Source: an uncultured beta proteobacterium
Lineage (GTDB): Bacteria; Pseudomonadota; Gammaproteobacteria; Burkholderiales; Burkholderiaceae_C
Direction of reading: 5' to 3'
Assembly (NCBI GenBank): GCA_903886275.1
Contig: CAISLN010000119.1
Span: forward strand, 62,001-126,000
Length of the DNA: 64,000 bases
Part shown: piece by piece, positions 12,457 through 49,062 of the stretch
Position numbering within the stretch: the first letter of the stretch is position 1
Layout of the letters: every line of letters starts with the position of its first letter
The notes under the pieces: generated by a model
The model's database searches: none
Seen by the model: only the letters and a program-made list of their open reading frames with translations
Told to the model about the DNA's origin: nothing
Position numbers and translations under genes: made by a program

Positions 12457-12744
12457 ATGAACACACCCACCGGCAAATCCGCACTCACCCTACCCAAGGG
12501 CTACGCTGACTGTCTGGCACAGCTCAAGGGCCAGATTGCCCAGGCCCGCCAACGCGCCTCGCTGTCCGTTGATTCAGAACTGGTGCAACTCTATCGCCGC
12601 ATTGGCCGTGACATTTTGGAGCGGCAACAAAGCGAAGGCTGGGGTGCCAAGGTCATTGACCGGCTGGTCTATTTGGTCAGCAGGCTGCTGACCAATATTG
12701 TGCCGGACGTTCCCTTGGTCAGATGCGCGCTGCGATGTGCATAA
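12457..12744 (+). pseudogene. DUF1016 (YhcG-like PD-(D/E)XK nuclease) N-terminal fragment
   Basis: Residues 1-70 read as the DUF1016 N-terminal domain: GYADCLAQLKGQIAQARQRA, then LVQLYRRIGRDILERQ and GWGAKVIDRL. Directly after VIDRL the sequence jumps to a stretch belonging to the middle of the family (12665-12695, in another frame) and then degenerates, so the gene carries a large internal deletion and lacks the nuclease domain. A second DUF1016 fragment lies at 26087-26290. Confidence 0.75.
12665..12695. repeat. 31-bp sequence shared with 26173-26203, containing a 23-bp palindrome
   Basis: Thirty-one identical bases occur here and at 26173-26203. Inside is an inverted repeat, TTGGTCAGCAG-G-CTGCTGACCAA (12673-12695), with 11-bp arms and one central base. 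In the second copy it encodes the DUF1016 phrase GLFGQQAADQ; here it lies at the deletion joint of the other DUF1016 fragment, out of frame. Confidence 0.9.
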
Positions 12745-12830: not shown

Positions 12831-13913
12831 ATGCCCACACTCACGCCGCTTGAACAGCTCAACCCCGCCCGGTTTGAGACGCCCGCCATTCTCAAGAAAC
12901 TGGCAAGCAGCAGCCGCAAGCTGGCAGAGCTGAAGGGCCTTGCGGCGTCCATTCCCAACCAGGGCATTCTGATCAACACGCTGGCACTGCAAGAGGCCAA
13001 GGACAGCTCCGAGATCGAAAATATCGTCACCACCCACGACGAGTTGTTCAAGGACGATGTGCTGCCTGAAACGTTTGCCAATCCTGCCGCCAAAGAGGTG
13101 CTGCGCTACCGCCAGGCATTGCGGGTCGGGTTTGAGCGGGTGCACGGCAGTGGCCTGCTCAACTGCAACCACATCATCGAGATTCAGGGCGAGTTGGAGC
13201 GCAACAACGCGGGCTTTCGCAAGCTACCGGGCACGGCGCTCAAAGACGGCGGCGGCCAGACCATCTATACCCCGCCACAAGACCCGGCGGAAATCATCGC
13301 CCTCATGGGCAGCTTGGAACGCTTCATCAACGAGGCCGATCTGTTTGATGCCGACCCATTGATCAAGATGGCGCTGATCCACCACCAGTTTGGAAGCATC
13401 CACCCGTTCTACGACGGCAATGGCCGTACCGGGCGCATCGTGAACGTGCTGTATCTGGTGAAGGAGGGCTTGCTCGACATTCCGGTGCTGTACCTGAGCC
13501 AACACATCGTGCGCCACAAGGCCGACTACTACCGTCTGCTGCAAACCGTGCGCGAAGAAGACACCTGGGAAGACTGGGTGCTGTACCTGCTGGACGCGGT
13601 GGAGCAAACCGCCGGGCAGACGATTCAGACCGTGCAGGCTATCAAGACCGCGCTGTTTGACTACAAGCAGCGCATTCGCGCGGGCTACAAGTTTTACAGC
13701 CAGGATTTGATCAACAACCTGTTCATGCACCCCTACACCAAGATCGACTTTGTGCAGCGCGACTTGGGTGTGTCGCGCATCACGGCCACCAAATACCTGG
13801 AAGCGTTGACCGAGGGCGGGTTTGTACAAAAGCAAAAAATCGGGCGCGGCAACTACTATGTGAACCTGGCCTTGAACGCGGTCTTGCAGGGCCAAGCGCC
13901 AGGCTCGCCGTGA
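12831..13913 (+). CDS. fic: Fic-family protein with N-terminal inhibitory helix and C-terminal winged helix
   Basis: 360 aa, apparently intact. The class II inhibitory motif SSEIEN (about 59-64) precedes the catalytic loop [12 protein letters not shown] (about 190-201), whose His and the DxNxxGR anchor match active AMP transferases. The C-terminus (about 285-345) is a winged helix ([22 protein letters not shown]) suggesting DNA binding and autoregulation. Its TGA overlaps the GTG of hsdR (GTGA), so the two are translationally coupled. Fic genes embedded in type I loci are common, but their role there is unsettled. Could modulate or guard the restriction system. Confidence 0.92.
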
Positions 13914-16900
13914 CCGAAGACCAACTCGAACAGGAAGCACTGGGCTGGCTGACCGAGGCTGGCTACGCAACTGTGTTCGGGCCGGACATCGCGCCAGACG
14001 GAGAGGCCCCTGAACGCGGCGACTACCGGCAGGTGCTGCTGACGTTTCGCCTGCGCGAAGCCATCCTCAAGCTCAACCCCGGCATCCCCACCGCCGCCCG
14101 CGAAGACGCGCTCAAGCAGGTGCTGGACCTGGGTCACCCGGCCTTGCTGTCGGCCAACCGGCTGTTCCACCGCCTGCTGGTGGCCGGTGTGCCGGTGGAG
14201 TACCAAAAAGACGGTGAGACGCGCGGCGACTATGTGCGCCTGATGGACTGGGCCACGCCCGAGCGCAACGACTGGCTGGCCGTCAACCAGTTCTCCATCA
14301 AGGGGCCGCACCACACGCGCCGACCCGACATCATCCTGTTCGTCAATGGCCTGCCATTGGTACTGCTGGAATTGAAGAATCCGGCGGATGAGGCGGCTGA
14401 CATCTGGAAAGCCTTCGACCAGATTCAGACCTACAAGGAGCAGATTCCTGAGGCGTTTCAGTACAACGAGTTGTTGGTGATCTCGGACGGCAGCGAGGCG
14501 CGCCTTGGCGCACTGTCGAGCAACGCTGAGCGCTTCATGCAGTGGCGCACCATAGACGGTGTGGCGCTCGACCCGCTGGGGCAATTCAACGAGCTGGAAA
14601 CGCTGATACGGGGCGTGCTAGCACCGGCGTACCTGCTGGACTACCTGCGCTACTTTGTGCTGTTCGAGGACGACGGCGGCATCATCAAAAAGATCGCGGG
14701 CTACCACCAGTTCCATGCGGTGCGTCTTGCCATCGGGCAGGTCATCGCGGCATCGCGCCCGGGTGGATCGCACAAGGGCGGCGTGGTCTGGCACACCCAG
14801 GGCAGCGGCAAGAGCATCACCATGACCTGCTTTGCAGCGCGCGTGATGCAGGACGCCGCAATGGAGAACCCGACCATCGTCGTCATCACCGACCGCAATG
14901 ACCTGGACGGCCAGTTGTTTGGCGTGTTCTCGCTGGCGCAAGACCTGTTGCGGGAGCAACCGGTGCAGGCGACCACCCGCCAAGACCTGCGCGCCAAACT
15001 CGCCAACCGTCCCTCGGGCGGCATCGTCTTCGCCACCATCCAGAAATTCATGCCCGGCGAGGACGAAGACATGTTCCCGGTGCTGTCAGACCGCAGCAAT
15101 ATCGTCGTCATCGCGGATGAAGCGCACAGGACGCAGTACGGCTTTGAGGCCAAGCTCAAGACCTACAAGCCCAAGTCCGGTGCAAGCCCCGCCCTCACCA
15201 CTGGTGACGGGTCGGTGAAGGCACACAAGGTCGAGTTCGCACCGCCGCAAGAGGCGCATCAGCGCTATCAGGTTGGCTATGCCCAGCACCTGCGCGACGC
15301 CCTGCCCAACGCCACCTTTGTGGCCTTCACCGGCACGCCGGTCTCGTCCGAAGACCGTGACACCCGCGCCGTCTTTGGCGACTACATCCACATCTACGAC
15401 ATGCAGCAGTCCAAGGAAGATGGGGCCACGGTCGCCATCTACTTTGAGTCGCGGCTCGCCAAGCTGGCTATCAACCCGGACGACCTGCCGCAGATCGACG
15501 ACGAGGTGGACGAACTGACTGAGGACGAGGAAGAGAGCCAGCAGGCCAAGCTCAAGAGCCGCTGGGCTGCGCTGGAGAAAGTGGTGGGTTCCGAGCCGCG
15601 CATCGCCAGCGTGGCCGCCGATCTGGTGGCCCACTTTGAAGAGCGCAGCAAGGCGCAGACGGGCAAGGCCATGGTGGTTGCCATGAGCCGCGACATTTGC
15701 GTGCACCTGTACAACGAGATCACCAAGCTGCGCCCCGACTGGCACGACGCCGACCCCGAGAAGGGTGTGCTCAAGATTGTGATGACCGGCTCGGCCAGCG
15801 ACAAAGCCTTGCTGCGCCCCCACATCTACAGCGCCCAGGTCAAGAAGCGGCTGGAGAAGCGCTTCAAAGACCCGCAAGACCCCATGCGGCTGGTGATCGT
15901 GCGCGACATGTGGCTGACCGGGTTTGATGCCCCCTGCGTGCACACCCTGTATGTGGACAAGCCGATGAAGGGCCACAACCTGATGCAGGCCATTGCGCGG
16001 GTCAACCGGGTCTTTAAAGACAAACAAGGCGGTCTGGTGGTGGACTACATCGGCATCGCCAATGCGTTGCGCAGCGCCCTGAAGGAATACACCGCCAGCA
16101 AGGGCCGTGGTCGCCCGTCCGTGGACGCGCACGAAGCCTATGCCCTGCTGGAAGAAAAACTCGACCCGTTGCGGGCCATGTTGCACGCCTTTGACTACAG
16201 CGATTTTTTGACCACCGGCCACAAGCGACTGGCGGGTGCGGCCAACCATGTGCTGGGTCAGAAGGATGGCAAGAAACGCTTTGCCGACACTGCGCTGGCG
16301 ATGAGCAAGGCCTTCACCCTGTGCTGCACCTTGGACGAGGCCAAGGCAGTGCGTGAGGAAGTTGCCTTCTTCCAAGCCGTCAAGGTCATTCTGACCAAGC
16401 GCGAGATCAGCCAGCAAAAGAAGACCAACGAGGAACGCGAACTCGCCATCCGCCAGATCATCGGTTCAGCCGTGGTGTCGGAAGAGGTGGTGGACATCTT
16501 CAACGCCGTCGGGCTGGACAAGCCCAACATCGGCATCCTCGACGATGCATTTCTGGCCCAGGTTCGCAATCTGCCCGAACGCAATCTGGCCGTGGAACTG
16601 CTGGAGCGGCTGATGCAGGGCGAGATCAAGAGCCGGTTTTCGGGCAACGTGGTGCAGGAGAAAAAGTTCTCTGAACTGCTGACCAGCGTCATCCAGCGTT
16701 ACCAGAACCGGGCCATTGAAACCGCGCAGGTCATCGAGGAACTGATAGCGATGGCAAAGAAGTTCCGGGCCGCTGCCACGCGTGGCGACGAACTGGGCCT
16801 GACCGAGGACGAGATTCTTTTCTACGACGCCCTGGCCGACAACGAATCGGCCGTGCGCGAACTCAGCGATGAGATTTTGAAGAAGATCGCCCATGAACTG

Positions 16901-17080
16901 ACCGAAAACCTGCGCCAGAATCTGAGCGTTGATTGGTCACAGCGCCAAAGCGTTCGCGCCAAGCTGCGCCTGATGGTCAAGCGCATCCTTCGCAAGTACA
17001 AGTACCCGCCCGATCAGCAAGAAGGCGCAGTGGAACTGGTGCTGGAGCAGGCCCAGGCTTTGGGCGAGGCGTGGATGTAG
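13910..17080 (+). CDS. hsdR: Type I restriction enzyme R subunit HsdR
   Basis: 1056 aa, GTG start overlapping the fic stop by 4 nt. The N-terminal nuclease domain shows [20 protein letters not shown], with the PD...ELK triad near residue 153. The SF2 translocase follows, with Walker A TQGSGKS (about 294), DEAH box [11 protein letters not shown] (about 401), the TAT/GTP-type motif [14 protein letters not shown], and motif [12 protein letters not shown] helical C-terminal region completes the protein. It cleaves unmodified DNA far from the HsdS-defined site after ATP-driven translocation. With hsdM frameshifted, it would be dangerous or inactive unless methylation is supplied otherwise. Confidence 0.94.
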
Positions 17081-17458: not shown

Positions 17459-17609
17459 CCTACCACTTCCGCCCATTCCCGAGTCGCATCTCTGCTTCAA
17501 CCATCCCTACAAGTTCTTGTCCCGGTTGCTTACGTGCCCTGGCAAGGTTGAAGATCGTAGCCAGAGTTGCCTTTGCACCAAAGAAAATACATACACCTCG
17601 GGAAAAACG

Positions 17610-17768
17610 GGCCATTCCGCTGATTCAATTGCCGAGGGCTACCGGCCGCGTTCTATTGACGCCCTGAGACCATACCTTGCACAGATTGAAGCCCACATCC
17701 TGGAGCAGGCCGGTATTGTGTTCGACGCCCAGGCCGTGCCCGGTGCGCTGCGGGTGGTGGCTGGTTAA
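17610..17768 (+). pseudogene. Tyrosine integrase C-terminal remnant
   Basis: Fifty-two codons in frame read GHSADSIAEGYRPRSIDALR and continue to a VVAG C-terminus and TAA. The same segment ends the complete integrase at 24112-25473 (GHSPDSIAEGYRPRSIDALR), including the catalytic Tyr in EGYRP. Everything before GHS is missing and the upstream sequence is unrelated. It is the relic of an earlier element with the same integrase type. Confidence 0.85.
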
Positions 17769-20057: not shown

Positions 20058-23000
20058 ATGAGCCTGCATCAAGAAATCAGCTTCGAGCTGGAGATTTGCC
20101 ACCACCTGTCACAAAACGGCTGGCTTTATTCGGAGCCTGGCACCGATGGCGATGCAGCAGGCTATGACCGCGCCCGCGCCCTGTTCCCCGCCGACCTGCT
20201 GGCCTGGGTACAGGCCACCCAGCCGAAGGCTTGGGACACGCTGGTCAAGAACCATGGCGCCAAGGCCGCTGACACGCTGATGGCCCGTCTGCGCGACCAG
20301 TTGGACCAGCGTGGCACCCTGGTGTTGAGCTGTTGGGCCTTAAAAGCCCGCTGATGCTGGCGCAGTTCAAGCCCGCACTGGCATCAACCCCGACATCCTG
20401 CTGCGCTACGCTGCCAACTGCCTGCGCGTGGTGCGCCAGGTGCGCTACTCGCTGCATTGCGAAAACAGCATCGACCTGGTGCTGTTCCTGAACGGCCTGC
20501 CGGTGGCAACTGGCGAACTCAAGACCGACTTCACCCAGAGCATTGGCGATGCCGTTGACCAATACCGCTTTGACCGCAACCCGCGCCCCAAGGGTCAGGC
20601 GCCTGAGCCGCTGCTGTCGTTTCCGTCGGGTGCGCTGATCCACTTCGCGGTCAGCAACTCCGAGGTGGCGATGGTCACCAAGCTGGCAGGGCCAGCTACC
20701 GTGTTCCTGCCTTTCAATCTGGGCGATGACGGTGCTGCCGGTAATCCGGTGAATGCTGCCGGTGGACACCGCACGGCCTACCTGTGGGAGCAGGTGTGGG
20801 CGCGTGAGAGCTGGCTGGAGATATTGGGGCGCTACCTGATCGCCCAACGCGACAAGAAGAAGCAGATCGAGAAGATCATCTTCCCGCGTTACCACCAGCT
20901 TGACGCCACCCGCAAGCTCCAGGCAGCAGTCTTGACAGACGGCCCTGGTGGCAAGTACCTGATCCAGCACAGCGCCGGTTCCGGCAAGACCAACTCCATC
21001 GCCTGGACCGCGCACTTTCTGGCCGAGCTGCACGACGCAGAAAATCGCAAGGTGTTCGATACCGTGCTGGTGGTGTCGGATCGCAACGTGATCGACGCCC
21101 AGTTGCAGGAGGCCCTGTTCGACTTCCAGCGCACCACCGGCGTGGTTGCCACCATCAAGAACACCGACGGATCAAAAAGCGCCGCGCTGGCCGAGGCCCT
21201 GTCTGGTGACAAGAAGATCGTGGTCTGCACCATCCAGACCTTCCCCTTCGCGCTGGAGGCCGTGCGCAAGCTGGCTGCCACCCAGGGCAAGCGCTTCGCA
21301 GTCATCGCTGACGAGGCGCACAGCTCCCAAACCGGCGAGGCCGCCAGCAAGCTCAAGGCCGTGCTGAGCCCCGACGAGCTGAAAGACCTGAACGACGGCG
21401 GCGAGGTCAGCACAGAGGACATTCTGGCCGCCCAGATGGCAAGCCGTGCCGAAGACGGTGGCATCACCTTTGTGGCCTTCACTGCCACGCCCAAGAACAA
21501 GACGCTGGAGCTGTTTGGCACGCGCCCCGACCCCAGCCGCAAGCCTGCGCCCGACAACGTGCCCAAGCCCTTTCACGTCTACTCCATGCGCCAGGCCATC
21601 GAAGAAGGCTTCATTCTGGACGTGCTACAGAACTACACACCCTACAGCCTGGCCTTCAAGCTGGCCCATAACGGCCAAGAGGTGAACGAGCGCGAGGTAG
21701 AGCGCAACGCCGCCATGAAGGGCATCATGGGTTGGGTGCGGCTGCACCCGTACAACATCGCCCAAAAGGTGCAGGTGGTGGTGGAGCACTTCCGCGAGTT
21801 CGTGGCACCTCTGCTGAACGGCAAAGCCAAGGCGATGGTGGTGGTGGGCAGCCGCCTGGAAGCGGTGCGTTGGCAACTGGCAATCGACAAATACATCAAG
21901 GCCAACAATTACGGCTTCGGCACGCTGGTGGCCTTCTCCGGCGAGGTGAATGACAAGGACTCTGGCGCCGAGCCATTCACCGAGGTCAGCAAGGCGCTAA
22001 ACCCTGGCCTCAAGGGCCGCGACATCCGCGAAGCCTTCAAGGGCGAGGAATACCGAATCCTGCTGGTGGCCAACAAGTTCCAGACCGGGTTCGATCAGCC
22101 GCTGCTGTGCGGCATGTACGTGGACAAGCGCCTGGCAGGCATTCAGGCGGTGCAGACGCTCAGCCGCCTGAACCGTGCCTACCCTGGCAAGGACACCACC
22201 TACGTGCTGGACTTCGTGAACGACACCGCCGAGGTACTGGCCGCCTTCAAGACCTACCACACCACCGCCGAGCTGTCGGCCACCACCGACCCGAACCTGG
22301 TCTTCAACCTGCGCGCCAAGTTGGACGGCGCCGGGCACTATGACACCGTCGAAGTAGACCGCGTGGTCAAGGTCGAGCTGAACCCCAAGGCCAAGCAAAG
22401 TGAACTGGTCGCCGCACTGGAGCCGGTGCAAGACCGCATCATGCGGCGCTACAAGGCAGCGGTGGCGGCGCTCAAAACCGCCAAGGAGAAGAAGGACGAC
22501 ACCGCCGTCAAGGCCGCACAGGACGAGCTGGACGCACTGGTTTTGTTCAAGGGCGATATGGGCGCCTACCTGCGGCTCTACACCTTCCTGTCGCAAATCT
22601 TTGACTACGGCAATACCGGGATTGAGAAGCGGTCGATTTTCTACAAGCGCCTGCTGCCCCTGCTGGAGTTTGGCCGCGAACGCGAGGGCATTGACCTGTC
22701 CAAGGTGGTGCTGACCCACCACCACCTCAAGGACCAGGGCAGCCGCAGCCTGCCATTGTCAGACGGCGAGACACCCAAGCTGGCCCCCATCACCGGAGCG
22801 GGCAGCGGTGGCGTGCAGGAGCAGCAAAAGGCCTACATGGCCGAGCTGATAGCAAAGCTCAACGACCTGTTCGGCTCCGAGACCAGCGAGCAGGACCAAC
22901 TGCGCTACGTCAACGGCACCATCCTGGGCAAGGTAGCCGAGTCGGCCAAGCTCCAACAGCAAGCCGCCAACAACACCAAGGAGCAGTTTGCCAACTCACC

Positions 23001-23175
23001 GGACCTGAAGACCGAGTTGCAAAACGCCATCATTGCCTCGTATGACGCGCACACGGCCATGAGCACGCAGGCGCTGAACTCGCCCATCGTCATGCATGGG
23101 CTGTTGGATATCTTGCTCAACCATGCGGGGTTGTACGAGACGCTGCGGGGGCAAAGTGCAGTGCATCGACAGTAG
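20058..23175 (+). pseudogene. hsdR: Second type I restriction enzyme R subunit, frameshifted near its N-terminus
   Basis: A good start (GGGAGGGCG, ATG 20058) gives MSLHQEISFELEICHHLSQN and runs to a stop at 20354. A short middle segment in a second frame (VELLGLKSPLMLAQFKPAL) and a third frame from about 20390 (INPDILLRYAANCLRVVRQV) then complete the protein to 23175. At least two lesions are implied: a small deletion near 20324 and a one-base loss near 20383. The long 3' part holds ELKTDFTQS, Walker A SAGSGKT, DEAH (VIADEAHSSQTG) and helicase motifs, and differs clearly from hsdR at 13910. The nuclease N-domain is disconnected, so activity is unlikely. Confidence 0.88.
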
Positions 23176-23750: not shown

Positions 23751-23855
23751 GAGACTACGCCCAACGCCAGCATTTGGAAACAACCGTGAACCGTCGCTTG
23801 ACAGTCTAGGGATTCAAGAAACCGTCTTACATCCGCCGTTACATCAGGTCCAAAC

Positions 23856-23885
23856 AAAAAAGCCCCGACCTTGTGAGTCGGGGCT
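23856..23885 (-). terminator. Rho-independent terminator beside the left att copy
   Basis: Reading the minus strand, AGCCCCGAC / GTCGGGGCT forms a 9-bp perfect stem with a 7-base loop, followed by a T-run. It is the counterpart of the terminator downstream of tRNA-Thr at 31631-31660, with different but still paired stem bases. Confidence 0.8.
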
Positions 23886-23901
23886 AAGTTGTTGATTCAT
23901 A

Positions 23902-23946
23902 TGGTGCCACTTGTCGGAATCGAACTGACGACCTTCTCCTTACGAA
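23902..23946 (-). repeat. Left attachment site: 45-bp copy of the tRNA-Thr 3' half
   Basis: Forty-five bases are identical to 31677-31721, covering the CCA end, acceptor 3' strand, T-arm, variable loop and anticodon-stem 3' side up to the anticodon loop. Beyond 23946 similarity ends. This is the typical footprint of a tyrosine integrase using the anticodon loop as crossover region. Confidence 0.95.
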
Positions 23947-24076
23947 TGACGGAATAAATCAATTTGCCTTTGTTGATTGGAGTAGTAAAATCTATACAAA
24001 TCAACAGCTTACAGGTTAACCACTGGACAAGTGAACAGTTAAAGCATTGATTGGATTTGGGCTTTATTCGCTGAAT

Positions 24077-24096
24077 TTGCCTACAAGTTGCCTACA
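24077..24096 (+). repeat. Paired TTGCCTACA repeats inside the left end (possible integrase arm sites)
   Basis: TTGCCTACA occurs at 24077-24085 and 24088-24096, spaced 11 bp start to start, between the left att repeat and the integrase start. The same pair with the same spacing occurs inside the right end (31590-31609). Confidence 0.75.
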
Positions 24097-24111
24097 GATT
24101 TTGGGGAAGAC

Positions 24112-25473
24112 ATGAAACAGCAAGAAAACCGTGTGAACCTGACCGCTGGCCGGGTGGATGCGTTCACCTGCCCGACAGGCAAGGCACAAGCGTTTCTATG
24201 GGACACCGACACCCCATCCCTGGCGCTGCGCGTGACCCCAACAGGCCGCAAGACCTATGTGTTTGAAGCCCGGTTGAATGGTGCGACCATCCGCATGACT
24301 ATTGGCACTCTGACCGACTGGCCGATAAAGGAGGCCCGCACCAGAGCCCAGGGGTTGAAGATGATGGTTGACGCTGGCACAGACCCACGTGAGGTAGAGC
24401 GCGACCGTCAAGCCGCCGTCACTGAAAAGAAGGCCGTAGCACTTGCCAAGGTGGCAGCTGACAAGGTGCAAGCCCTGACCGTGGGCGACTTGTGGCCGCA
24501 GTACTTGGATGAAGGCAAGCCCAAGCGCCGCCCAGCGTGGAAACCGCGCTACCGTGCCGACATACTTTTGATGTCGTCACCAGGTGGCGTTAAGAAGGTG
24601 CGCGGGCAGGGCTTCACGCGAGTGGGGCCGCTATACCCGCTGATGGCGATGCCGCTGACCCAGATAAACGAGGACACGCTGAAGGCCTGGCACGATAAGG
24701 AAGCAAGGCAGGGCGCCGACTATGCCGCCCGCGCCCTGATGATTTTTCGCGGCTTCCTGCGCTGGGCTGCCAGCAAGCCGGAATATCGGGGCCTTGTGAA
24801 CCGGGCCGCCGGCAGTGCGCCCGCCATTCTCGACACACTACCCAGCACCAAGGCCAACAAGCGCAAAGACTGCCTGGAGGCCGCGCAGTTGCCCGGCTGG
24901 TTTGCTGGTGCCGACACGCTGGGTAACAGGACGATTGCGACCTACCTGAAGGCGCTGGTGCTGACTGGCGCACGCCGCGAGGAGATGGCCGGGCTGCGCT
25001 GGGAAGATGTGGATTTCAGGTGGAGCCGCATAACCCTGGCTGACAAGGTGAACGACACGCGGGTTATTCCGCTGTCGCCCTACCTGGCGCAAATGCTTGT
25101 GACCCTGCCGCGAGTGACAACCGAAGACGGCAAAGCAAACCCGTTTGTGTTCGCCGCCAAGTCTGCCAGCGGGCATATTGAGGAGCCCCGTTCTAATTTC
25201 AGCAAGGTGAATAAACACGCTGGCGTCGTCAAGCTGACCATTCACGGCCTGCGCCGTTCTTTTTCCCTGCTGGGAGAGGCGGCCGGCGCCCCTGCTGGCG
25301 CGATTGCCCAAGTGATGGGGCATTCTCCCGATTCAATCGCTGAAGGCTACCGGCCTCGTTCCATCGACGCCCTGAGGCCATACCTTGCGCAGATTGAGGC
25401 GCACATTCTGCAACAGGCCGGGATTGTGTTTGATGCGACGGCCGCGCCCGATGCATTGCGGGTGGTGGCTTGA
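24112..25473 (+). CDS. int: Tyrosine-type site-specific integrase (P4-like)
   Basis: 453 aa from the ATG at 24112, with GGGGAAG upstream; an earlier in-frame TTG lies inside the repeat block and is rejected. The N-terminal DUF4102-type arm-binding domain (LALRVTPTGRKTYVFEARLN) is followed by a core-binding region, then the catalytic domain: Arg in TGARREEMAGLRWED (about 286), HGLRRSF (about 378), GHSPDS, and the nucleophile Tyr in EGYRPRS (about 413). All catalytic residues appear present. It lies next to its att site, as expected for tRNA-targeting elements, and is followed at once by BrnTA. A truncated copy of its C-terminus lies at 17610. Confidence 0.95.
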   Translation: MKQQENRVNLTAGRVDAFTCPTGKAQAFLWDTDTPSLALRVTPTGRKTYVFEARLNGATIRMTIGTLTDWPIKEARTRAQGLKMMVDAGTDPREVERDRQAAVTEKKAVALAKVAADKVQALTVGDLWPQYLDEGKPKRRPAWKPRYRADILLMSSPGGVKKVRGQGFTRVGPLYPLMAMPLTQINEDTLKAWHDKEARQGADYAARALMIFRGFLRWAASKPEYRGLVNRAAGSAPAILDTLPSTKANKRKDCLEAAQLPGWFAGADTLGNRTIATYLKALVLTGARREEMAGLRWEDVDFRWSRITLADKVNDTRVIPLSPYLAQMLVTLPRVTTEDGKANPFVFAAKSASGHIEEPRSNFSKVNKHAGVVKLTIHGLRRSFSLLGEAAGAPAGAIAQVMGHSPDSIAEGYRPRSIDALRPYLAQIEAHILQQAGIVFDATAAPDALRVVA

Positions 25474-26088: not shown

Positions 26089-26290
26089 CCTGAAAGATGC
26101 CTTTACCGACATGCGCGGCTGGTCGTCCAGCAACCTGAAATACATGCGATTTTTTGCCCAACATTGCCCGGATGGTCTATTTGGTCAGCAGGCTGCTGAC
26201 CAAATGCCATGGTTCCATATCGTGACACTGCTAACCCAACTGGACAACGCCGCAGACCGGGAGGTAGCGCCTGAGCCGGTGGCGGCATAA
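26087..26290 (+). pseudogene. DUF1016 (YhcG-like nuclease) internal fragment
   Basis: An open stretch without its own start reads DLKDAFTDMRGWSSSNLKYM, then FFAQHCPDGLFGQQAADQMP and WFHIVTLLTQLDNAADRE before a TAA. This is the segment of DUF1016 proteins between N-terminal and nuclease domains. Both ends of the gene are missing. It is complementary in content to the N-terminal fragment at 12457. Confidence 0.75.
26173..26203. repeat. Second copy of the 31-bp sequence with 23-bp palindrome
   Basis: Identical to 12665-12695. Here the palindrome (26181-26203) is in coding frame, encoding FGQQAADQ of the DUF1016 fragment. Confidence 0.9.
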
Positions 26291-27409: not shown

Positions 27410-27670
27410 ATGCAAACCGCATCAATCAGCATCCAAGCGATGCGCGAGGCAACCGCCCCGCAACAGTTCCCCGCACCGTTCCCGCCGCTGGCGCTGGTGA
27501 ATAAACCCAACCTCACGACAGCCGAAACCGCCTACTACCTGAACCGCCGCCCGCAGACCTTGAGGGGCTGGGCTTGTCTGGAGAATGGCCCGCTTCGCCC
27601 CTGCCGTATCGGTGGCTTGCTGGCCTGGAATACTGCGACCGTTAAGGCACTGGCCGGAGTTGCAGCGTAA
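27410..27670 (+). CDS. AlpA-like helix-turn-helix regulator/excisionase
   Basis: 86 aa. AAAGG lies before the ATG. The C-terminal half LTTAETAYYLNRRPQTLRGW followed by GPLRPCRIGGLLAWNTATVK has the MerR/AlpA layout (helix-turn-helix, then R-x-x-x-x-L-x-W/F-x-x-x-x-V) found in P4 AlpA and excisionase-type proteins, which activate integrase or drive excision. The N-terminal 30 residues are Pro/Ala-rich and probably flexible. Its stop overlaps the next small gene (TAATG). The array at 27312-27360 is a candidate binding site. Confidence 0.78.
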   Translation: MQTASISIQAMREATAPQQFPAPFPPLALVNKPNLTTAETAYYLNRRPQTLRGWACLENGPLRPCRIGGLLAWNTATVKALAGVAA

Positions 27671-27774: not shown

Positions 27775-28110
27775 ATGAAAACGCCCCAGCTTCCCAAAGA
27801 AAACCAGAGCGCCCCTAACAAGCGCAAGTTTAACGGCACAAGCAACCCGCGCCAGCTTCGCGCAACACAGGCAATGTTTCGCCGCCCTATCAGCCGCCAA
27901 GAGCTTGATTCAGTAGCTGGCTGCACCAATGGCCCCGACCTAATCGCCGCCCTGCGTGCGCTGGGTCTGATCATCGAATGCGACCGCATCAAGTTCATTG
28001 ACCGCGACGGAAAAACTGTCGTCCTGGTGTCTATTAATTTTCCAGCAAGGGTAAGCACATGGTTAATGCTTGGCTCTCCGAACGCAAGAAAGGTGGTGCA
28101 GCATGAGTAA
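27775..28110 (+). CDS. Small helix-turn-helix hypothetical protein
   Basis: 111 aa, starting on the base after the microprotein stop. After a basic polar N-terminus, residues about 35-85 (MFRRPISRQELDSVAGCTNG, then LIAALRALGLIIECDRIKFI) look like a winged helix-turn-helix found in small element proteins. The C-terminus is poorly conserved in appearance. It overlaps the initiator-like gene by 8 nt and is presumably co-translated with it. A role in replication control or regulation is plausible but unproven. Confidence 0.7.
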   Translation: MKTPQLPKENQSAPNKRKFNGTSNPRQLRATQAMFRRPISRQELDSVAGCTNGPDLIAALRALGLIIECDRIKFIDRDGKTVVLVSINFPARVSTWLMLGSPNARKVVQHE

Positions 28111-28843
28111 GCACGAGAAGCCCCGGCGCGACCCACGCGGCCACAGCCTGCGCATCTATGACGACATTTACGACAGCCCCGCATTTGCAGCCCTGTCCCC
28201 GCATGATGTGCTGGCATACCTGGCGCTGCTGCGCGAGCTGCGGGGGTCCAACAATGGCGACCTGTCATTGCCGCTTAGCCGCGCCAGCAAGTGCGGCATA
28301 ACCCATCATGTGACCCTTGCCCGCAGCCTGCGCGCGCTGTGCGCCGTGGGTCTGGTGGCAGTGACCCGCAAAGGTGGCTGCACCTCTGGCGGACAGCGCC
28401 AGCCCACGCTGTACCGTGTCACCGACCGCGAATGCTACGCCATCCCCGCAAAGCTGCTGGACGCAACCAAGGAGACCAACGAATGGAAGCGCATCGCCAG
28501 CCTTGAGCAGGCCGCCGGGCTGATTGCTGCGGCTGAGATTGCAGCCAAAAAGGAGTACTCAGAAAAAATTAGCCTAGGTCACGCCGTGACAGCGACCACG
28601 TCACGGCGTGACCTGGTCAGCCCTAAAACCACGTCACCGCGTGACACCTGGAACGCTGGACCACGTCACGGCGTGACTATGGCTGAAAAGGGCTCAAACC
28701 CAATGCCCATGCGGGTTGCAGCCGAGTTTCCCATGAGGGTGAAAAATCAATCCATACGTCACCGCGTGTACCACCTTTATATATTGCCATCCCTAGGCCG
28801 TTTTATGCCTGCACGGGACACGAGAACAGACACCGCTGGCTGA
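28103..28843 (+). CDS. Replication-initiator-like winged-helix protein with iterons in its gene
   Basis: 246 aa from the ATG at 28103, with AAAGGTGG upstream; a longer in-frame start at 28070 lies inside the previous gene. The N-terminal 115 residues form a winged helix (SLRIYDDIYDSPAFAALSPH; LSLPLSRASKCGITHHVTLA; ARSLRALCAVGLVAVTRKGG), the layout of many element replication or HTH proteins. The C-terminal part (from about 155) is low-complexity and basic because it is written over a series of GTCACSGCGTGAC palindromes. This resembles lambda O, whose gene contains the origin. The initiator role is inference from that arrangement. Confidence 0.65.
   Translation: MSKHEKPRRDPRGHSLRIYDDIYDSPAFAALSPHDVLAYLALLRELRGSNNGDLSLPLSRASKCGITHHVTLARSLRALCAVGLVAVTRKGGCTSGGQRQPTLYRVTDRECYAIPAKLLDATKETNEWKRIASLEQAAGLIAAAEIAAKKEYSEKISLGHAVTATTSRRDLVSPKTTSPRDTWNAGPRHGVTMAEKGSNPMPMRVAAEFPMRVKNQSIRHRVYHLYILPSLGRFMPARDTRTDTAG
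28578..28770. repeat. Five GTCACSGCGTGAC palindromes (iteron-like), possible origin
   Basis: Copies start at 28578, 28600, 28633, 28665 and 28758 (the last degenerate, ending GTGTA; the first has CGCCG in the centre). Start-to-start spacings are 22, 33, 32 and 93 bp, close to 2, 3, 3 and 9 helical turns. Four are preceded by AC and the middle three share CCAC upstream. AT-rich stretches lie on both sides (28551-28572 and 28771-28785). Confidence 0.85.
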
Positions 28844-28908
28844 GCCCTGGTCAGATTGAATTCATCGCCAGCCTGACCGCTTCAAATCAAATTCACTGAA
28901 CGCCCAAC

Positions 28909-29337
28909 ATGCAAACAAACCCCGAGCACATCTCGAACCTGACCATTGAAATTGAAGAAGATGGCAGCGTGGTCCTTGAGCAGGATTGCACCGGCAACAT
29001 CAGCCGGGTATGGGTCCATCCGGTCCAGCTTCGCTACATTGCCGAAAAAATGGGCCTGGTTGAAACAAGCGACCCAAAGGCCGCCAAGACCATTGCAACA
29101 TTGGAGCGCCGTTTGCTGGTGCTGCGCGACCGTATCGACGAGTTGCACGACTACCTGGTCAACCACTCAGACCACAAACATGCCGACCTCAGTTATGAGG
29201 TGACATTTTCGCGGGCGAGCCTGGACATTGTGGAAGAGTTCTGCCATGACCTTGACGAACAGCCGTACAACACCGCACGCGACGCCACGCCGTCCGCACC
29301 ATGCACCGCGCCCAGCGCCGCCGCTGGTGACCACTGA
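28909..29337 (+). CDS. Hypothetical element protein, 142 aa
   Basis: No strong ribosome binding site is seen. The N-terminal 50 residues are beta-rich and acidic (ISNLTIEIEEDGSVVLEQDC), the middle is a long amphipathic helix with Leu and Arg (LERRLLVLRDRIDELHDYLV) and the tail is Ala/Pro/Thr-rich. Probably a small DNA- or protein-binding accessory factor of the element. No family recognised. It ends directly before the DUF5681 gene and is likely in one transcription unit with it. Confidence 0.7.
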   Translation: MQTNPEHISNLTIEIEEDGSVVLEQDCTGNISRVWVHPVQLRYIAEKMGLVETSDPKAAKTIATLERRLLVLRDRIDELHDYLVNHSDHKHADLSYEVTFSRASLDIVEEFCHDLDEQPYNTARDATPSAPCTAPSAAAGDH

Positions 29338-29784
29338 TTGAGCAAAATGGTTTCAAAGAAAAAAGCACCGCCGCACGCCTGGAAGCCGGGCCAGTCTGGC
29401 AACCCCAAGGGCCGCCCGGCTGGCAGTGGCGAAGTGTCCAAACTTCGCGCCAGCATTGCAGCGCGTGTGCCCGAGTTGCTGGCTGCCATGATGACAAGAG
29501 CCCTTGATGGTGATGTGGGGGCCGCACGCCTACTGCTGGAACGCGCCATCGCACCGCTGAAGGCCGCAGAACCTACCCAAGCCCTAAGCCTGCCTGATAG
29601 CAGCCTGACCGACCAGGGCCGCGCCGTGCTGGCATCCGTGGCCGCTGGTCAACTCGCGCCGGGGCAGGGTGCCGCGCTGCTGGGTGCGATTGGAACGCTG
29701 GCGCGAGTAGCTGAATTTGACGAACTGGAAGCGCGAATAGCTGGACTGGAGGCCCAAAGTGCCAAATCTAAAAGAGAGACTTAA
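29338..29784 (+). CDS. DUF5681-domain protein (possible small terminase-like)
   Basis: 148 aa from the TTG at 29338 (alternative ATG at 29347). The N-terminal WKPGQSGNPKGRPAGSGE is the hallmark of DUF5681, followed by helices (VPELLAAMMTRALDGDVGAA; RLLLERAIAPLK). Proteins of this kind occur in phages and integrative elements, often near packaging genes; a small terminase role is suspected but not shown. The C-terminal 45 residues are an Ala/Leu helix ending in charged KSKRET. It overlaps the next gene by 26 nt. Confidence 0.75.
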   Translation: MSKMVSKKKAPPHAWKPGQSGNPKGRPAGSGEVSKLRASIAARVPELLAAMMTRALDGDVGAARLLLERAIAPLKAAEPTQALSLPDSSLTDQGRAVLASVAAGQLAPGQGAALLGAIGTLARVAEFDELEARIAGLEAQSAKSKRET

Positions 29785-31609: not shown

Positions 31610-31630
31610 AGGCAGTAAAAATTCCGAAAC

Positions 31631-31660
31631 AAAAAAGCCCCAGTCTTGTGAACCGGGGCT
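31631..31660 (-). terminator. Rho-independent terminator downstream of tRNA-Thr
   Basis: On the minus strand AGCCCC/GGGGCT forms the stem core with further partial pairing, followed by six T, 16 bp after the tRNA 3' end. Confidence 0.8.
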
Positions 31661-31676
31661 AAGTTGTTGATTTCAT

Positions 31677-31721
31677 TGGTGCCACTTGTCGGAATCGAAC
31701 TGACGACCTTCTCCTTACGAA
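31677..31721 (-). repeat. Right attachment site: 45-bp repeat within tRNA-Thr
   Basis: Identical to 23902-23946. It marks the right end of the 7.8-kb element and ends in the anticodon loop. Confidence 0.95.
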
Positions 31722-31752
31722 GGAGCTGCTCTACCAACTGAGCTAAAGCGGC
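31677..31752 (-). tRNA. tRNA-Thr (anticodon CGT)
   Basis: 76 nt including an encoded CCA. The acceptor stem GCCGCTT pairs with AAGTGGC (one G-T pair), the D-arm contains AGCTCAGTTGGTAGAGC, the anticodon loop TTCGTAA gives CGT at 31719-31717, and the T-arm contains GTTCGATTC. It remains complete because the element brought or preserved an identical 3' half. Confidence 0.95.
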
Positions 31753-45188: not shown

Positions 45189-45211
45189 GCACGATTCAGT
45201 TGGGCATGGAA

Positions 45212-47047
45212 TCAGGGCGTCAGGTGGCCCAGAGCCATGGTGCAGCGAAGCGCAGCGCCAGGTCGCACATAGGTCGCTGGAATCGTGATGCTGGTTGCCT
45301 TTGCCGTGACCAGAACCCCAGTGGGGTTGCCGCTGATGGCTGCGTTGGTGTCGTTGCAACTGAATACGCTGACGAACCAGCGCGGCTCGGGCAGCTTGGT
45401 GGAAACCGTTGTTGCGGTGTTGAAGGCAGTTAGCGGATCGGTACTGCTCGTGACCAAGACGTTCAACGCGGTGTCGGTCAACGGTCGTGCCGCCCAGCCG
45501 TTGGTTCCCGTGTAGTCGAAGCGGTAGGGTGGCAGCAGGTTGACCGGGACGGGGCCAAGCACCATCTGGCGCACCGTCAGTGTGGCGGCCTTGGGTTTGT
45601 TGGTGATGGTGCAGATATAGGTCTCACTGCCAGTGGGCGTGATGGTCCCGCCCAGGCTCAACGCTGGCAGTGGGGTGCCGTCTAGCGTGCAATTTACGCT
45701 ACTGGTATAGCGGCCCAAAATAGCACCGTTGCTGGCGACCTCATTGAGGGTGTAGCTGGTGTTGGCCGTGGTGGTGAATCTGCCCGTGGTACCAGAGCCG
45801 GCTGTGACCACGGTGCCGCTGCCTGTGGTGGTGCTGGTGAGGGTGTTGTTCACCACCGCGTTGTTCTGCAGGATCTGCACAGCGAATTGGTCCGTCGCGC
45901 TGACCCGCCCTGTCCCGCTGATTGCCTTGGTGACGGTAATGCTGGGCAATCTGAGGTTCACCGTGAGAGTGGCAGTGTCGCATATGCTGGCGTAGGGCGC
46001 GGGCGCACACAGCTTGTATTCGACCGTGCAGCTCTGGCTGCCTGCGGGCAGCGTGTAGCTCAATATTCCGGTCGTATTGGCGGTGGGGTTAAACGGACTG
46101 GGGTTGGTGCAGCTGCCGCCAGTGGCCGTGAAGGTAGAGCCTGCTGGGTTGGCGTCGTTGGCAGAGACGTCCGTGCTGGATGGCACACCGGCTGGTTTTG
46201 AGTCGGAATCGTCTATCGCGTTGATGACCGCGTTGTTTGTGGCGCCTTGGCAGGTGCCGTTTGCACAGGAAGTAGGTCCACCCCCGGAAGCGTAGGCAAT
46301 GTTGTATGCATAGATGTTGCTGTGGCTGGAGGCCGCAGCAGTCACGTCAACGGGAACCGTGATGCTTATGGGTCCATAAGTTCCGGCAGCGATGGTGCAC
46401 CCCGTCAAATTCGCAGAGCCGGCCGAAGGGCAGCCAGACAGGACTCCGCCAGTGGCGGTGATGGGCCCACGGGTGGTGATGCCCACAGGTAAATTGTCCG
46501 TAACAGCGATCGCTTGCGTGGTCGGGCCGTTACTTACCGAAATTGTGATGTTGTAGCTTTGCCCGCTGGCACCCACAGCAAAATACGGGGGTGATGCCGA
46601 TTTGGTGACCGACAGGGCGGCACGCACATATTTGGCACCTTCAAACCAAAAATACCCCTCAGTTGGCGAAATGCCTGTGTCTTCGAAAACGGGATTGCAT
46701 TGCCCAGTGTTGAGCGACGGGCGGTAGGATGCGCAGAGTCCAAAAGCGGCTCCGCAGCCGACCTTAACCCATCCAAGACTGATGCCTGAACCAGGAACTT
46801 CTGTGTAGCCGGAGTAAGAGCTGCCGTTTCCAACGCTCGCTATCGTTCTGCCGTTTACGGTCATATTCGTGTCCCACCACGAGTTATTCGTTGGCTGGAA
46901 ATGAACCCTCACCACGTCGTAGCTTGAGACGTTTTGCCAGCAGATATTGCCCTGCCAGATAAGGTTCTGTGAATTGGCAACGCCAAGCATGCTAAAAAAA
47001 GCAGCCAGCGCAAGCAAGCCCTTGATTAAATAGTTTCGGAGTTTCAT
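45212..47047 (-). CDS. Secreted DUF11-type surface protein, paralogue A
   Basis: 611 aa from the ATG at 47047, with GGTGA upstream; a longer frame exists but lacks a signal. A signal peptide (KLRNYLIKGLLALAAFF, cleavage near residue 27) is followed by a Cys-containing N-domain (about 30-160), a DUF11-like beta domain (about 165-290; VTKSASPPYFAVGASGQSYN), Ser/Thr/Gly/Asn-rich segments and a C-terminal module of about 240 residues starting at SITVTKAISGTGR and ending GAALRCTMALGHLTP. The last module is shared with the neighbour at 47425. No LPXTG or autotransporter domain is present. Likely cell-surface or secreted; function unknown. Confidence 0.82.
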   Translation of the reverse strand: MKLRNYLIKGLLALAAFFSMLGVANSQNLIWQGNICWQNVSSYDVVRVHFQPTNNSWWDTNMTVNGRTIASVGNGSSYSGYTEVPGSGISLGWVKVGCGAAFGLCASYRPSLNTGQCNPVFEDTGISPTEGYFWFEGAKYVRAALSVTKSASPPYFAVGASGQSYNITISVSNGPTTQAIAVTDNLPVGITTRGPITATGGVLSGCPSAGSANLTGCTIAAGTYGPISITVPVDVTAAASSHSNIYAYNIAYASGGGPTSCANGTCQGATNNAVINAIDDSDSKPAGVPSSTDVSANDANPAGSTFTATGGSCTNPSPFNPTANTTGILSYTLPAGSQSCTVEYKLCAPAPYASICDTATLTVNLRLPSITVTKAISGTGRVSATDQFAVQILQNNAVVNNTLTSTTTGSGTVVTAGSGTTGRFTTTANTSYTLNEVASNGAILGRYTSSVNCTLDGTPLPALSLGGTITPTGSETYICTITNKPKAATLTVRQMVLGPVPVNLLPPYRFDYTGTNGWAARPLTDTALNVLVTSSTDPLTAFNTATTVSTKLPEPRWFVSVFSCNDTNAAISGNPTGVLVTAKATSITIPATYVRPGAALRCTMALGHLTP

Positions 47048-47424
47048 GAGGTCACCGGTTTGCAATGGGTGGGAGGAGAACAGCAGGGCCGTCCGCGAAT
47101 AATTCGCAGATTGGAGGGCCTGGGTCCGCGCAGGACCAGGAGGCGATGCTGAAGCGAGTTGGGATACATGGCCTGAATATCTTGGATGGCGCGTTTTTGT
47201 AGCGGGAGAAATGTTCGTTAATAGGCATTGTCAAATGCAGTGTGGGCGAATTGCCTGCTTTCCGAAGGTCAGATGGCGGCTTGTGCGCCATGATGCTGTC
47301 CGCCAGGGCCGGCTGCCTTTTCATTGGTGTGAATTGGCGGCGCTGCTGACCAGGCCTAAGCCAGCACCGATTTTGGTCAGCGATTGGCGCGAGTTTGCCG
47401 GGTTCCCCGAACTTGGCGTGCAAC
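47048..47424. other. Intergenic stretch between the two surface-protein genes
   Basis: No supported gene. A minus-strand frame covering most of it has no clear start and lacks protein character. The stretch probably holds the promoter of paralogue A. Confidence 0.45.
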
Positions 47425-49062
47425 TCATGGCGTCATGTGGCCCAGAGCCATGGTGCAGCGAAGCGCAGCGCCAGGTCGCACATAGGTTGCTGGAATCGTG
47501 ATGTTGGCTGTCTTTGCCGTGACCAGAACACCAGTGGGGTTGCCGCTGATAGTCGCGTTGGTATCCGTGCAACTGAATACGCTGACGAACCAGCGCGGCT
47601 CGGGCAGCTTGGTGGAAACCGTTGTTGCGGTGTTGACGGTAGTTAGTGTGTCGGTACTGCCGGCGGCCAGGGCGTTCAGCGCGTTGTTGATCAGCGCTTG
47701 CGACGTCCAGCCGTTGGTCCCCGTGTAGTCGAAGCGATAGGGCAGCAGCAGGTTGACCGGGACGGGACCAAGCACCATCTGGCGCACCGTCAGTGTGGCG
47801 GCCTTGGGGTTGTTGGTGATGGTGCAGATATAGGCGTCACTGACGGTAGGAGTGATACTGCCTCCCAGGTTGAACGCTGGCTGGGCGACGCCGTTGAGCG
47901 TGCAACGCACGTTGCTGTTGTAGCGCGCCAGAACGGCGCCGTTGCTGCCTACCTCGTTGATGGTGTAGCTGGTGTTGGCCGTGGCGCCAAAGCCGCCCGT
48001 GGTGCCGGTGTCGGGATTGACCACGCTGCCGCTGCCGGTGGTGGTGCTGTTGCTTGTGTTGTTCACCACCTTGTTGTCTTGCAGGATCTGCACGGTGAAC
48101 TGGTCCGTCGCAGCAGCGCGCCCCGTACCGCTAAGTGCTTTGCTGACGGTGATGCTGGGCAGCTCATCCCAGGTCACTGCCATCACGGGCGCGGCACCGG
48201 GGGTACATGCACGTACGGTGCCAGACTCGCTGATGCTGGTTACGAGTTTGGGGTTGTATGCACTGGCGCCGCCACCGCCGCTGCCTCCTGGAGAACAATA
48301 GCCCACCCCATATTCTGGCAGCGCGGTGTTGACGTCCCACTGTCCATAGCTACCGCTGCCACCGGTGTAACCACCTCCACCTGCGCCCCCGCCAGAGCCG
48401 TCTGAGCCACCGAAATTGTTCCCCCCGCCTCCCGCGCCCGAGCCCGTCGTGCGCAGACCGCTTACTGCATAGAGGGCGCCTGTGGTGCCTGCGGTGTTGT
48501 AGTTGGGACAGGCTCTTGTGGCTCCAGTTCCGCCGCCACCGCCGCCGGCGATGATGAATGCCTCGCCATTGGTTTTGTAAATAGCGGAGGCACCACCGCC
48601 CCCGCCGCCCGCCCCAGAAAACCCGTGCCATCCTGAGTAGCCGCCGTTGCCGCCCGGCGAGACAGACGAGCCCCCGCCCGTGCCGCCCCCGCAGCCCCCG
48701 CAGGTGTTGCCGTCAAGCCCCACACCCCCTTGCGAAAGGGCGATGACTTCGCCCGGCGTGACCTTTATGACTGCCTTATAGGTCTTTGCAGCGCCGCCAG
48801 AGGCTCCCGATGTGCGCGCACCATTGGGGTCGTCCCATACATCCCAGCCACCGCATCCCCCAGGTCCGCCCGCCATGGTCGATACTTTTAGCGATGTAAT
48901 GCCTGCGGGCACCGTAAAGGTTTGGTATTGGACGTAGTTGCTGTACGAAAAATTGAAGGACTGGCTGCCAGCGTGGGCGGAGGTGCCACAGAGCAGGGCA
49001 CCGGCAACCATGCCGGAGCAGAGGGCAAGCTGGCGCTTAAATAAATAGGTATGGAGTTTCAT
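47425..49062 (-). CDS. Secreted Gly-rich surface protein, paralogue B
   Basis: 545 aa from the ATG at 49062, with GGTGA upstream. A signal peptide (LALCSGMVAGALLCGTSAHA, cleaved after AHA) leads into a Gly-rich N-domain (AGGPGGCGGWD and many GG runs, about 60-275) of the kind that forms extended beta/glycine arrays. The C-terminal 240 residues repeat the module of paralogue A (SITVSKALSGTGRAAATDQF; LRCTMALGHMTP). The two proteins thus share signal-peptide region style and tail but have unrelated middles. Function unknown. Confidence 0.82.
   Translation of the reverse strand: MKLHTYLFKRQLALCSGMVAGALLCGTSAHAGSQSFNFSYSNYVQYQTFTVPAGITSLKVSTMAGGPGGCGGWDVWDDPNGARTSGASGGAAKTYKAVIKVTPGEVIALSQGGVGLDGNTCGGCGGGTGGGSSVSPGGNGGYSGWHGFSGAGGGGGGASAIYKTNGEAFIIAGGGGGGTGATRACPNYNTAGTTGALYAVSGLRTTGSGAGGGGNNFGGSDGSGGGAGGGGYTGGSGSYGQWDVNTALPEYGVGYCSPGGSGGGGASAYNPKLVTSISESGTVRACTPGAAPVMAVTWDELPSITVSKALSGTGRAAATDQFTVQILQDNKVVNNTSNSTTTGSGSVVNPDTGTTGGFGATANTSYTINEVGSNGAVLARYNSNVRCTLNGVAQPAFNLGGSITPTVSDAYICTITNNPKAATLTVRQMVLGPVPVNLLLPYRFDYTGTNGWTSQALINNALNALAAGSTDTLTTVNTATTVSTKLPEPRWFVSVFSCTDTNATISGNPTGVLVTAKTANITIPATYVRPGAALRCTMALGHMTP

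Follow-up and report, generated by a model that had tools for sequence, protein, structure and literature searches.

The five 15-bp sites towards the 3′ end of a winged-helix gene (28103–28843) very probably form a replication origin that lies inside the gene of its own initiator, with the sites bound by the encoded protein and accompanied by an A-tract and an AT-rich box. The mobile element that carries the gene is presumed to replicate. The DNA analysed is a stretch of 64,000 nucleotides, referred to here as the window; loci and proteins of relatives carry L and P numbers. Origins inside initiator genes are known from lambda and RepA_N systems. No description of the present family, of its site lattice or of the covariation presented below was found in the literature searched, which included the accessible portions of PMC7466680, PMC5703833, PMC10803314 and PMC12595487, subscription papers and preprints aside.

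Genomic context

The approximately 7.8 kb between two repeats of ~98 bp at a tRNA-Thr gene is an integrated mobile element. Between the repeats lie an integrase gene, BrnT/BrnA, an AlpA-like gene, two genes without a Pfam match, the initiator-like gene (rep), an unmatched gene and a DUF5681 gene. Within the element, no helicase loader was recognised. Its main features are as follows.

23852..23949, no strand: left direct repeat (attL-like), 92% identical to 31627–31724
24088..25473, + strand: tyrosine integrase (PF00589 2.9e-16, PF13356 6.8e-13)
27410..27670, + strand: small HTH (AlpA-like) gene; HTH_17 match weak and below the cut-off (0.012)
28103..28843, + strand: initiator-like gene (rep); winged helix at residues ~20–157, low-confidence tail at 164–246
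28307..28348, + strand: codons of the predicted recognition helix, residues 69–82, of which 69–70 covary with the sites
28909..29337, + strand: downstream gene without a significant match, also 3′ of rep in L006 (54%) and L028 (34% identity)
29338..29784, + strand: DUF5681 gene (PF18932 4.5e-12)
31627..31724, no strand: right direct repeat (attR-like), covering the 3′ half of tRNA-Thr (31677–31752, − strand)

The AlpA-like gene is 51% and 61% identical to ORFs beside rep in L027 and L028, respectively, and an ORF 63% identical to the DUF5681 gene is found in L028, ~7 kb from the rep gene of that locus.

Other features of the window were recorded outside this core. A remnant of an integrase 3′ end (17609–17762), 82% identical to the element integrase at 25317–25470, sits beside a type I restriction region and may have been left by an earlier element. 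Within 10 kb there are two R-subunit-like genes of type I restriction (13910–17080 and 20428–23175; PADLOC REase_I), and HigB-like and ParE-like toxin genes lie in the interval. A 42-bp repeat with 95% identity occurs once inside the element (26162–26203) and once outside it (12654–12695). A gene pair on the − strand at 36178–37970 matches both components (A and B) of the candidate defence system HEC-01 in PADLOC, and two 750-bp stretches (45203–45948 and 47415–48161) are 84% identical in a tandem-like duplication.

The site array

The initial annotation described five palindromes in the initiator-like gene. Exact copies of GTCAC-N3-GTGAC start at 28578, 28600, 28633 and 28665, while the fifth, at 28758–28770 (GTCACCGCGTGTA), is degenerate, with an intact left arm and two mismatches in the right arm. 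The spacings given at that time, 22, 33, 32 and 93 bp, are correct. In terms of 15-bp units, the array reads as follows.

28577..28591, + strand: site 1, GGTCACGCCGTGACA; palindromic arms 28578–28590
28599..28613, + strand: site 2, CGTCACGGCGTGACC; palindromic arms 28600–28612
28632..28646, + strand: site 3, CGTCACCGCGTGACA; palindromic arms 28633–28645
28664..28678, + strand: site 4, CGTCACGGCGTGACT; palindromic arms 28665–28677
28757..28771, + strand: site 5, CGTCACCGCGTGTAC; right arm degenerate, likewise in three close loci

The 5.19-Mb genome contains five exact occurrences of GTCACNNCGTGAC, and four of these belong to this array and lie within 100 bp. When up to two mismatches were allowed on both strands of the 64-kb window, 16 matches were obtained against a shuffle mean of 7.3; since 2 of 100 shuffles also reached 16, the signal resides in the exact copies and their clustering rather than in the loose count.

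At 10.5 bp per turn, the spacings correspond to 2.10, 3.14, 3.05 and 8.86 turns and the cumulative phases to 0, 34, 86, 103 and 51 degrees (R = 0.81; P = 0.029 for five random sites). The earlier suggestion that all copies occupy one face of the helix thus has weak significance from this locus alone, and the alignment is loose, with phases spread over 0–103 degrees and R falling to 0.45 at 10.3 bp per turn. The strong evidence for the predicted site geometry is the spacing kept across relatives and not the phasing in the window. With respect to the reading frame, sites 1–5 of the window fall in codon phases 0, 1, 1, 0 and 0.

Sites in close relatives

Close loci with DNA were L006, L027 (the same gene as L018) and L013, to which L012 and L014 are identical in the stretch. 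Absence of the repeats from close homologues, named in the initial annotation as evidence against its proposal, was looked for, and all three loci proved to carry the repeats at the five corresponding positions. Encoded traces of the sites are also visible across the listed protein relatives. The site offsets are 0, 22, 55, 87 and 181 in L006, L027 and L013 and 0, 22, 55, 87 and 180 in the window, such that site 5 lies 94 bp from site 4 in the former and 93 bp in the latter. In this comparison, which covers 11 loci, the first four offsets were imposed and the fifth was sought between 150 and 215.

The left arm of the sites can be written as GG-X-CAC, where the window has X = T, L006 and L027 have A, and L013 has G. 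Within each of these four loci, X in one arm is common to all five sites. It occupies codon position 3 at site 1, position 2 or 1 at site 2 (which is inverted in L006 and L013 and direct in L027), position 1 at site 3, position 3 at site 4, and position 1 at site 5, or 3 in the window. Because X falls in different codon positions across the sites, selection on the protein does not explain why it is shared; it is explained by a DNA-binding protein that reads all the sites. These comparisons support the view that the five sites behave as 15-bp initiator-binding sites, to which binding is predicted.

The initiator-like protein and its relatives

An AlphaFold2 model of the window protein presents a winged helix (residues ~20–157) and a tail (residues 164–246) with pLDDT < 50. 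The winged-helix assignment of the N-terminal domain is supported by both the model and fold matches, although this is a common fold and is not diagnostic. Residue 70 lies at the start of the predicted recognition helix in the model.

The PHROG family phrog_18020, 'replication initiation O-like', was matched weakly by the window protein (E = 0.0048) and at E ≤ 0.01 by 81 of 96 family members, the best at 6.4e-6. No Pfam match was obtained for the window protein up to E = 0.1, and the NCBIfam profile TIGR01610 (phage_O_Nterm) was matched neither by the window protein nor by seven other relatives, with the relative in L026 reaching it weakly (0.022), below the cut-off. A search of the family profile against PDB chains by sequence gave no match at E ≤ 1. 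As for neighbouring genes, a helicase gene and a Toprim gene precede the rep-family gene in L013, and the L026 relative is annotated as replication protein O and adjoins a DNA primase gene.

The first protein search returned 520 relatives at E ≤ 0.001, of which the best 120 were used; two further searches contributed the best 120 of 401 and the best 120 of 490, for at least 191 distinct proteins overall. With the first profile or protein at the cut-offs used, a family member was found in 4 of 103 genomes of the genus, 7 of 399 of the family, 2 of 399 of the order and 2 of 274 of the class. A broader family profile found matches in 43 of 399 and 35 of 389 genomes. Plasmid records held no relative and phage records held one. 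Viral contigs scanned with P0148, P0071 and the pattern GGNCACCNCGTGACACNTGG yielded no relative, and a genus search of G213 and a family search of G811 found no new locus. Many close relatives (P0016 and P0034, for example) have in common a short C-terminal tail of the pattern YxRLTxKPxxLFxxL, absent from distant relatives and possibly a partner-binding peptide.

Covariation of the sites with the predicted recognition helix

Site classes were read from the encoded residues in 157 relatives among the matches listed. Lysine at residue 70 was present in 39 of them (25 HPK, 13 HSK and one HHK). In this group, the site-5 residue is A in 39/39 and the site-3 residue is A in 38/39, the remaining one being V. 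Among the 118 proteins without K70, A was not encountered at site 5 in any of the 113 that could be read (110 T and 3 S, with 5 unread), nor at site 3 in any of the 118. At site 2, V occurs in 38/118 of the non-K proteins and 0/39 of the K proteins, and A in 0/118 and 23/39, respectively.

A scan of 150 N-terminal columns over 149 rows demonstrated that column 70 holds all 0.829 bits of the class, followed by column 69 (0.774), with the next column at 0.226. Residue 70 predicts site class without error in the readable rows, which is true of no other column among the 150. Within the non-K group, column 70 is also the best predictor of S or T at site 3 (0.213), and L70 is always accompanied by T (41/41); within the 39 rows of the K group, column 69 is the best for N at site 4 (0.806). 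The proteins P0139 and P0108 are 95% identical in their N-terminal parts outside of the helix and differ in both the helix and the sites.

On the best tree, which is poorly resolved, the K label changes 17 times and the site-5 label 16 times. Among well-supported branches, four independent pairs are available, with changes in the same direction in 4/4 for site 5 (p = 0.125) and, on average, 3.7/4 for site 3. Because there are few columns, only four independent class switches are forced, and with four pairs significance is out of reach on the tree.

The rule was then applied to 34 new proteins from the third search, with the prediction fixed before the output. Of 29 new proteins with K70, A is found at site 5 in all 23 that could be read (6 unread) and at site 3 in 28. 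The five without K70 have T at site 5 in four cases and A in one (P0189), and A at site 3 in two. The exceptions are P0189 (HHM, with A at sites 3 and 5), P0184 (HHL, A at site 3) and P0175 (HPK, S at site 3), which amounts to one clear exception to the residue-70 rule among the 34. Since two of the three protein queries are of the K class (P0054 and P0148), the class frequencies are biased; the association itself is not created in this way. No DNA was found for a gene of the HPK class, for which the proposed change in the right arm is read from protein letters alone. Taken together, the covariation with residues 69–70 supports binding of the sites by the N-terminal winged helix, as the initial annotation suggested.

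Site geometry in distant relatives

An unconstrained scan for repeated palindromic 15-mers, with no spacing imposed, was run over 280 bp of the gene end plus 170 bp in 14 loci. Five copies were found in the window (spacing 22, 33, 32, 93), in L028 (CTGCAGATTCTGCAG; 22, 32, 33, 103), in L031 (CTTCAGAAAGTGAAG; 22, 33, 32, 103) and in L033 (GGCCAGAATTTGTCC; 22, 33, 32, 80), and four copies of GTACAGAAACTGTAC were found at the end of the phage gene in L026 (22, 54, 35). The array was missed in 9 of the 14 loci; in four of these (L006, L013, L027 and L029) the 280-bp stretch had cut sites off. Other 450-bp windows equal the array score in L028 (6 of 70 windows, the array included), in L033 (8 of 70) and, in some instances, in L026.

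A template of 0/22/55/87 (each ±1) was also scanned over both strands of the whole locus in the same number of loci. The 3′ end of rep ranks first in nine of 14 (the window, L006, L013, L027, L028, L029, L030, L031 and L033), with a narrow win in L030 (70 vs 68). It ranks second in L034, is outranked by several places in L032, and is not recovered in L026 or L035; L036 was unreadable since masked runs of N filled its list. Because L006, L013 and L027 are close to the window, the independent result is five first places in ten. Between distant groups, the site sequences are wholly different and the 22/33/32 spacing is kept. The array also extends past the stop codon, with sites 3–5 beyond it in L031 and site 5 beyond it in L028, L030, L032, L033 and L034. 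In L028, sites 1–4 have codon phases 1, 2, 1 and 1.

The broader profile supplied 49 new loci. With the criterion fixed beforehand and all genes taken, wrongly, as + strand, the best-scoring template position fell at the gene end in 10 of the 49 (chance 8.4%, p = 0.007). After this first result, the loci were re-oriented by the NNG motif, leaving 36 usable and 13 dropped that have no such ORF. In this post hoc analysis, the best template place lies within −400 to +150 of the stop codon in 22 of 36 loci (chance 17%, p = 3e-9), 14 of them in the window orientation (p = 6e-7) and 8 in the opposite one. Seven of the 22 positives score ≤64, close to the scores of the misses; L060 and L063, counted among the misses, have strong arrays just beyond the distance limit. 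Several of the new loci have three sites at 33-bp intervals, and the first position of the template there is A-rich and a poor site. A wide superfamily that shares the site template at the gene end is likely, rather than proven.

A variant arrangement was observed in L049, L056, L057, L058 and L060–L063. These loci carry three near-identical sites such as CACCGTCTGGCGGTG, ~33 bp apart and in either orientation, with an A-rich stretch 22 bp beside them.

AT-rich DNA flanking the array

Two AT-rich features bracket the sites in the window.

28562..28571, + strand: A-tract directly upstream of site 1; a least-stable stretch that is kept in relatives
28774..28789, + strand: AT-rich box CCTTTATATATTGCCA, candidate unwinding element; its position after site 5 is found in relatives

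In the 11-locus comparison, all 11 loci have four or more consecutive A in the 25 bp that precede site 1, and a box with at most four differences from CCTnTATATATTGCCA, starting 1–2 bp after site 5, is present in 9/11; the program found no such box after site 5 in L028 and L029. AT-rich flanks had been proposed from the outset as an unwinding region. Within 28103–28908, the six least stable 15-bp stretches start either at 28556 (the A-tract) or at 28769–28776 (the box past site 5), so these are indeed the least stable DNA of the gene region; however, the rest of the element contains 18 and 23 stretches that are of even lower stability. With 30-bp windows, the A-tract alone stands out.

Comparison with known systems

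The initial annotation cited lambda O as a precedent. The comparison is apt for the mode of working, but family membership is not borne out. In the lambda record, iterons at 39034, 39054, 39078 and 39101 lie inside O, and PMC7466680 places the iterons and an AT-rich tract in the middle of O. Both systems thus present several short quasi-palindromic iterons within the initiator gene followed by an AT-rich tract, and iterons inside an initiator gene with an adjacent AT-rich tract are what the window locus displays. The differences are in spacing (20, 24 and 23 in lambda as compared to 22/33/32 with a distant fifth site) and in position, since the lambda origin is followed by more coding sequence and the present one is at or past the gene end. 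An hhalign comparison of the family with the single lambda O sequence gave a probability of 0.2 and TIGR01610 was not matched. No lambda P-like partner was identified at the window element.

Another phage example is the 'replication protein O' of Pseudomonas phage vB_Pae_U1 (L026), with 38.6% identity over 34% of the query. It shares the placement of its four GTACAGAAACTGTAC sites at the gene end, and differs in their spacing, given above, and in having a protein of only 155 aa.

The proposed origin would also work like that of the RepA_N plasmid pSK41, which lies inside rep and encodes a linker that is dispensable (PMC5703833); this fits the predicted disordered tail of the window protein. 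Rep of pSK41 contacts DnaG through a folded C-terminal domain, which the model of the window protein does not show, residues 164–246 having pLDDT < 50. The window protein shares an N-terminal winged helix with RepA_N proteins, a fold too common to be diagnostic, and has no RepA_N Pfam match (PF06970).

PICMI satellites resemble the element in being small, in combining an integrase with an AlpA-like gene and in using a conserved target. By the definition given in PMC10803314, a primase gene is required (int + alpA + primase); no primase match was found in the ten window genes scanned.

Proposed origin and alternative explanations

From the computed sites, their conservation, their geometry and their covariation with residues 69–70, we infer a sequence of physical binding, unwinding, helicase loading and replication. 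The winged helix would read each 15-bp quasi-palindrome, with residues 69–70 contacting the variable bases. Several copies of the protein would assemble on the 22/33/32 array and one more on site 5, and the resulting strain would open the AT-rich box, allowing the host helicase to load there once the element has been excised. The sites also encode the tail, which is predicted to be disordered, varies in length and is missing in some relatives, and which would be tolerated as a by-product of the DNA. An origin is the favoured interpretation in view of the phrog_18020 matches across most of the family, the helicase and Toprim genes of L013, the O annotation and primase gene of L026, and the adjoining AT-rich DNA as in lambda.

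The window copy could instead be a decayed replicon in which the sites survive and the protein is nonfunctional through its shifted-frame end, a prospect that we consider unlikely yet worth serious attention. Window residues beyond ~209 fail to align with close relatives, and the site 4 to site 5 distance is 1 bp shorter than in the three close loci. Past site 4, the window protein follows a different reading frame from its relatives, so the initiator of this copy may be impaired. On the other hand, the cluster to which the protein belongs has four member sequences on 25 contigs, and in several distant relatives the protein stops at the sites or ahead of them and that tail is missing altogether. 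Decay would be limited to the window copy and is compatible with an origin as the function of the array in the family.

A binding role other than an origin, such as a regulatory, partition or packaging signal, is improbable. Covariation speaks to binding and not to purpose, some members are labelled 'predicted transcriptional regulator' in some sources, and the neighbouring DUF5681 gene, which we take to resemble packaging genes, could be packaging-related. Against this, the sites lie at the 3′ end of the gene between the A-tract and the AT-rich box, they covary with the helix of the rep protein itself, and both the O-like profile and the replication genes that neighbour the family members of L013 and L026 point to replication.

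Selection of the conserved letters in the protein, with the tail as a functional repeat peptide and the palindromes as a codon by-product, is more doubtful still and we give it very little credence. It would account for the encoded letters common to many close relatives and for the codon phases, which are 0 and 1 at sites 1–2 in 9 of 11 loci and 0, 1, 1 and 0 at sites 1–4 in 8 of those. It does not accommodate an X shared over different codon positions, synonymous third positions included, nor a site 2 that is inverted in L006 and L013 yet direct in L027. The six loci with sites beyond the stop codon, the different codon phases of L028 and the predicted disorder of the tail argue against it as well.

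Finally, short palindromes are common and loose matches are not rare in the window, but a reading of the array as chance palindromes, or as RNA hairpins with no role in DNA binding, has a negligible likelihood given that four of the five exact copies in the genome are clustered here, and is contradicted by the covariation and the spacing geometry.

Implications

With an origin as the preferred reading of the array, we lean towards a broader interpretation, in which winged-helix initiators from proteobacterial mobile elements make up a widespread superfamily, undescribed so far, whose members keep the origin within the 3′ end of the initiator gene itself. The sites would be arranged on a fixed lattice, comprising the A-tract, sites at 0/22/55/87 and a fifth site fused to the AT-rich box, and the site word could be rewritten everywhere together with two residues of the helix. 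If this is true, a single gene would serve as both lock and key, and new, mutually compatible replicons could arise by few changes. Thousands of unannotated genes would become readable as self-contained replicons with a locatable origin. The relationship between residues 69–70 and one base of the site would constitute a naturally varied recognition code, by which the specificity of initiator for origin and the rise of new incompatibility groups would become directly testable. It would also provide a case of coding sequence that is shaped by a DNA machine at the cost of the protein it encodes.
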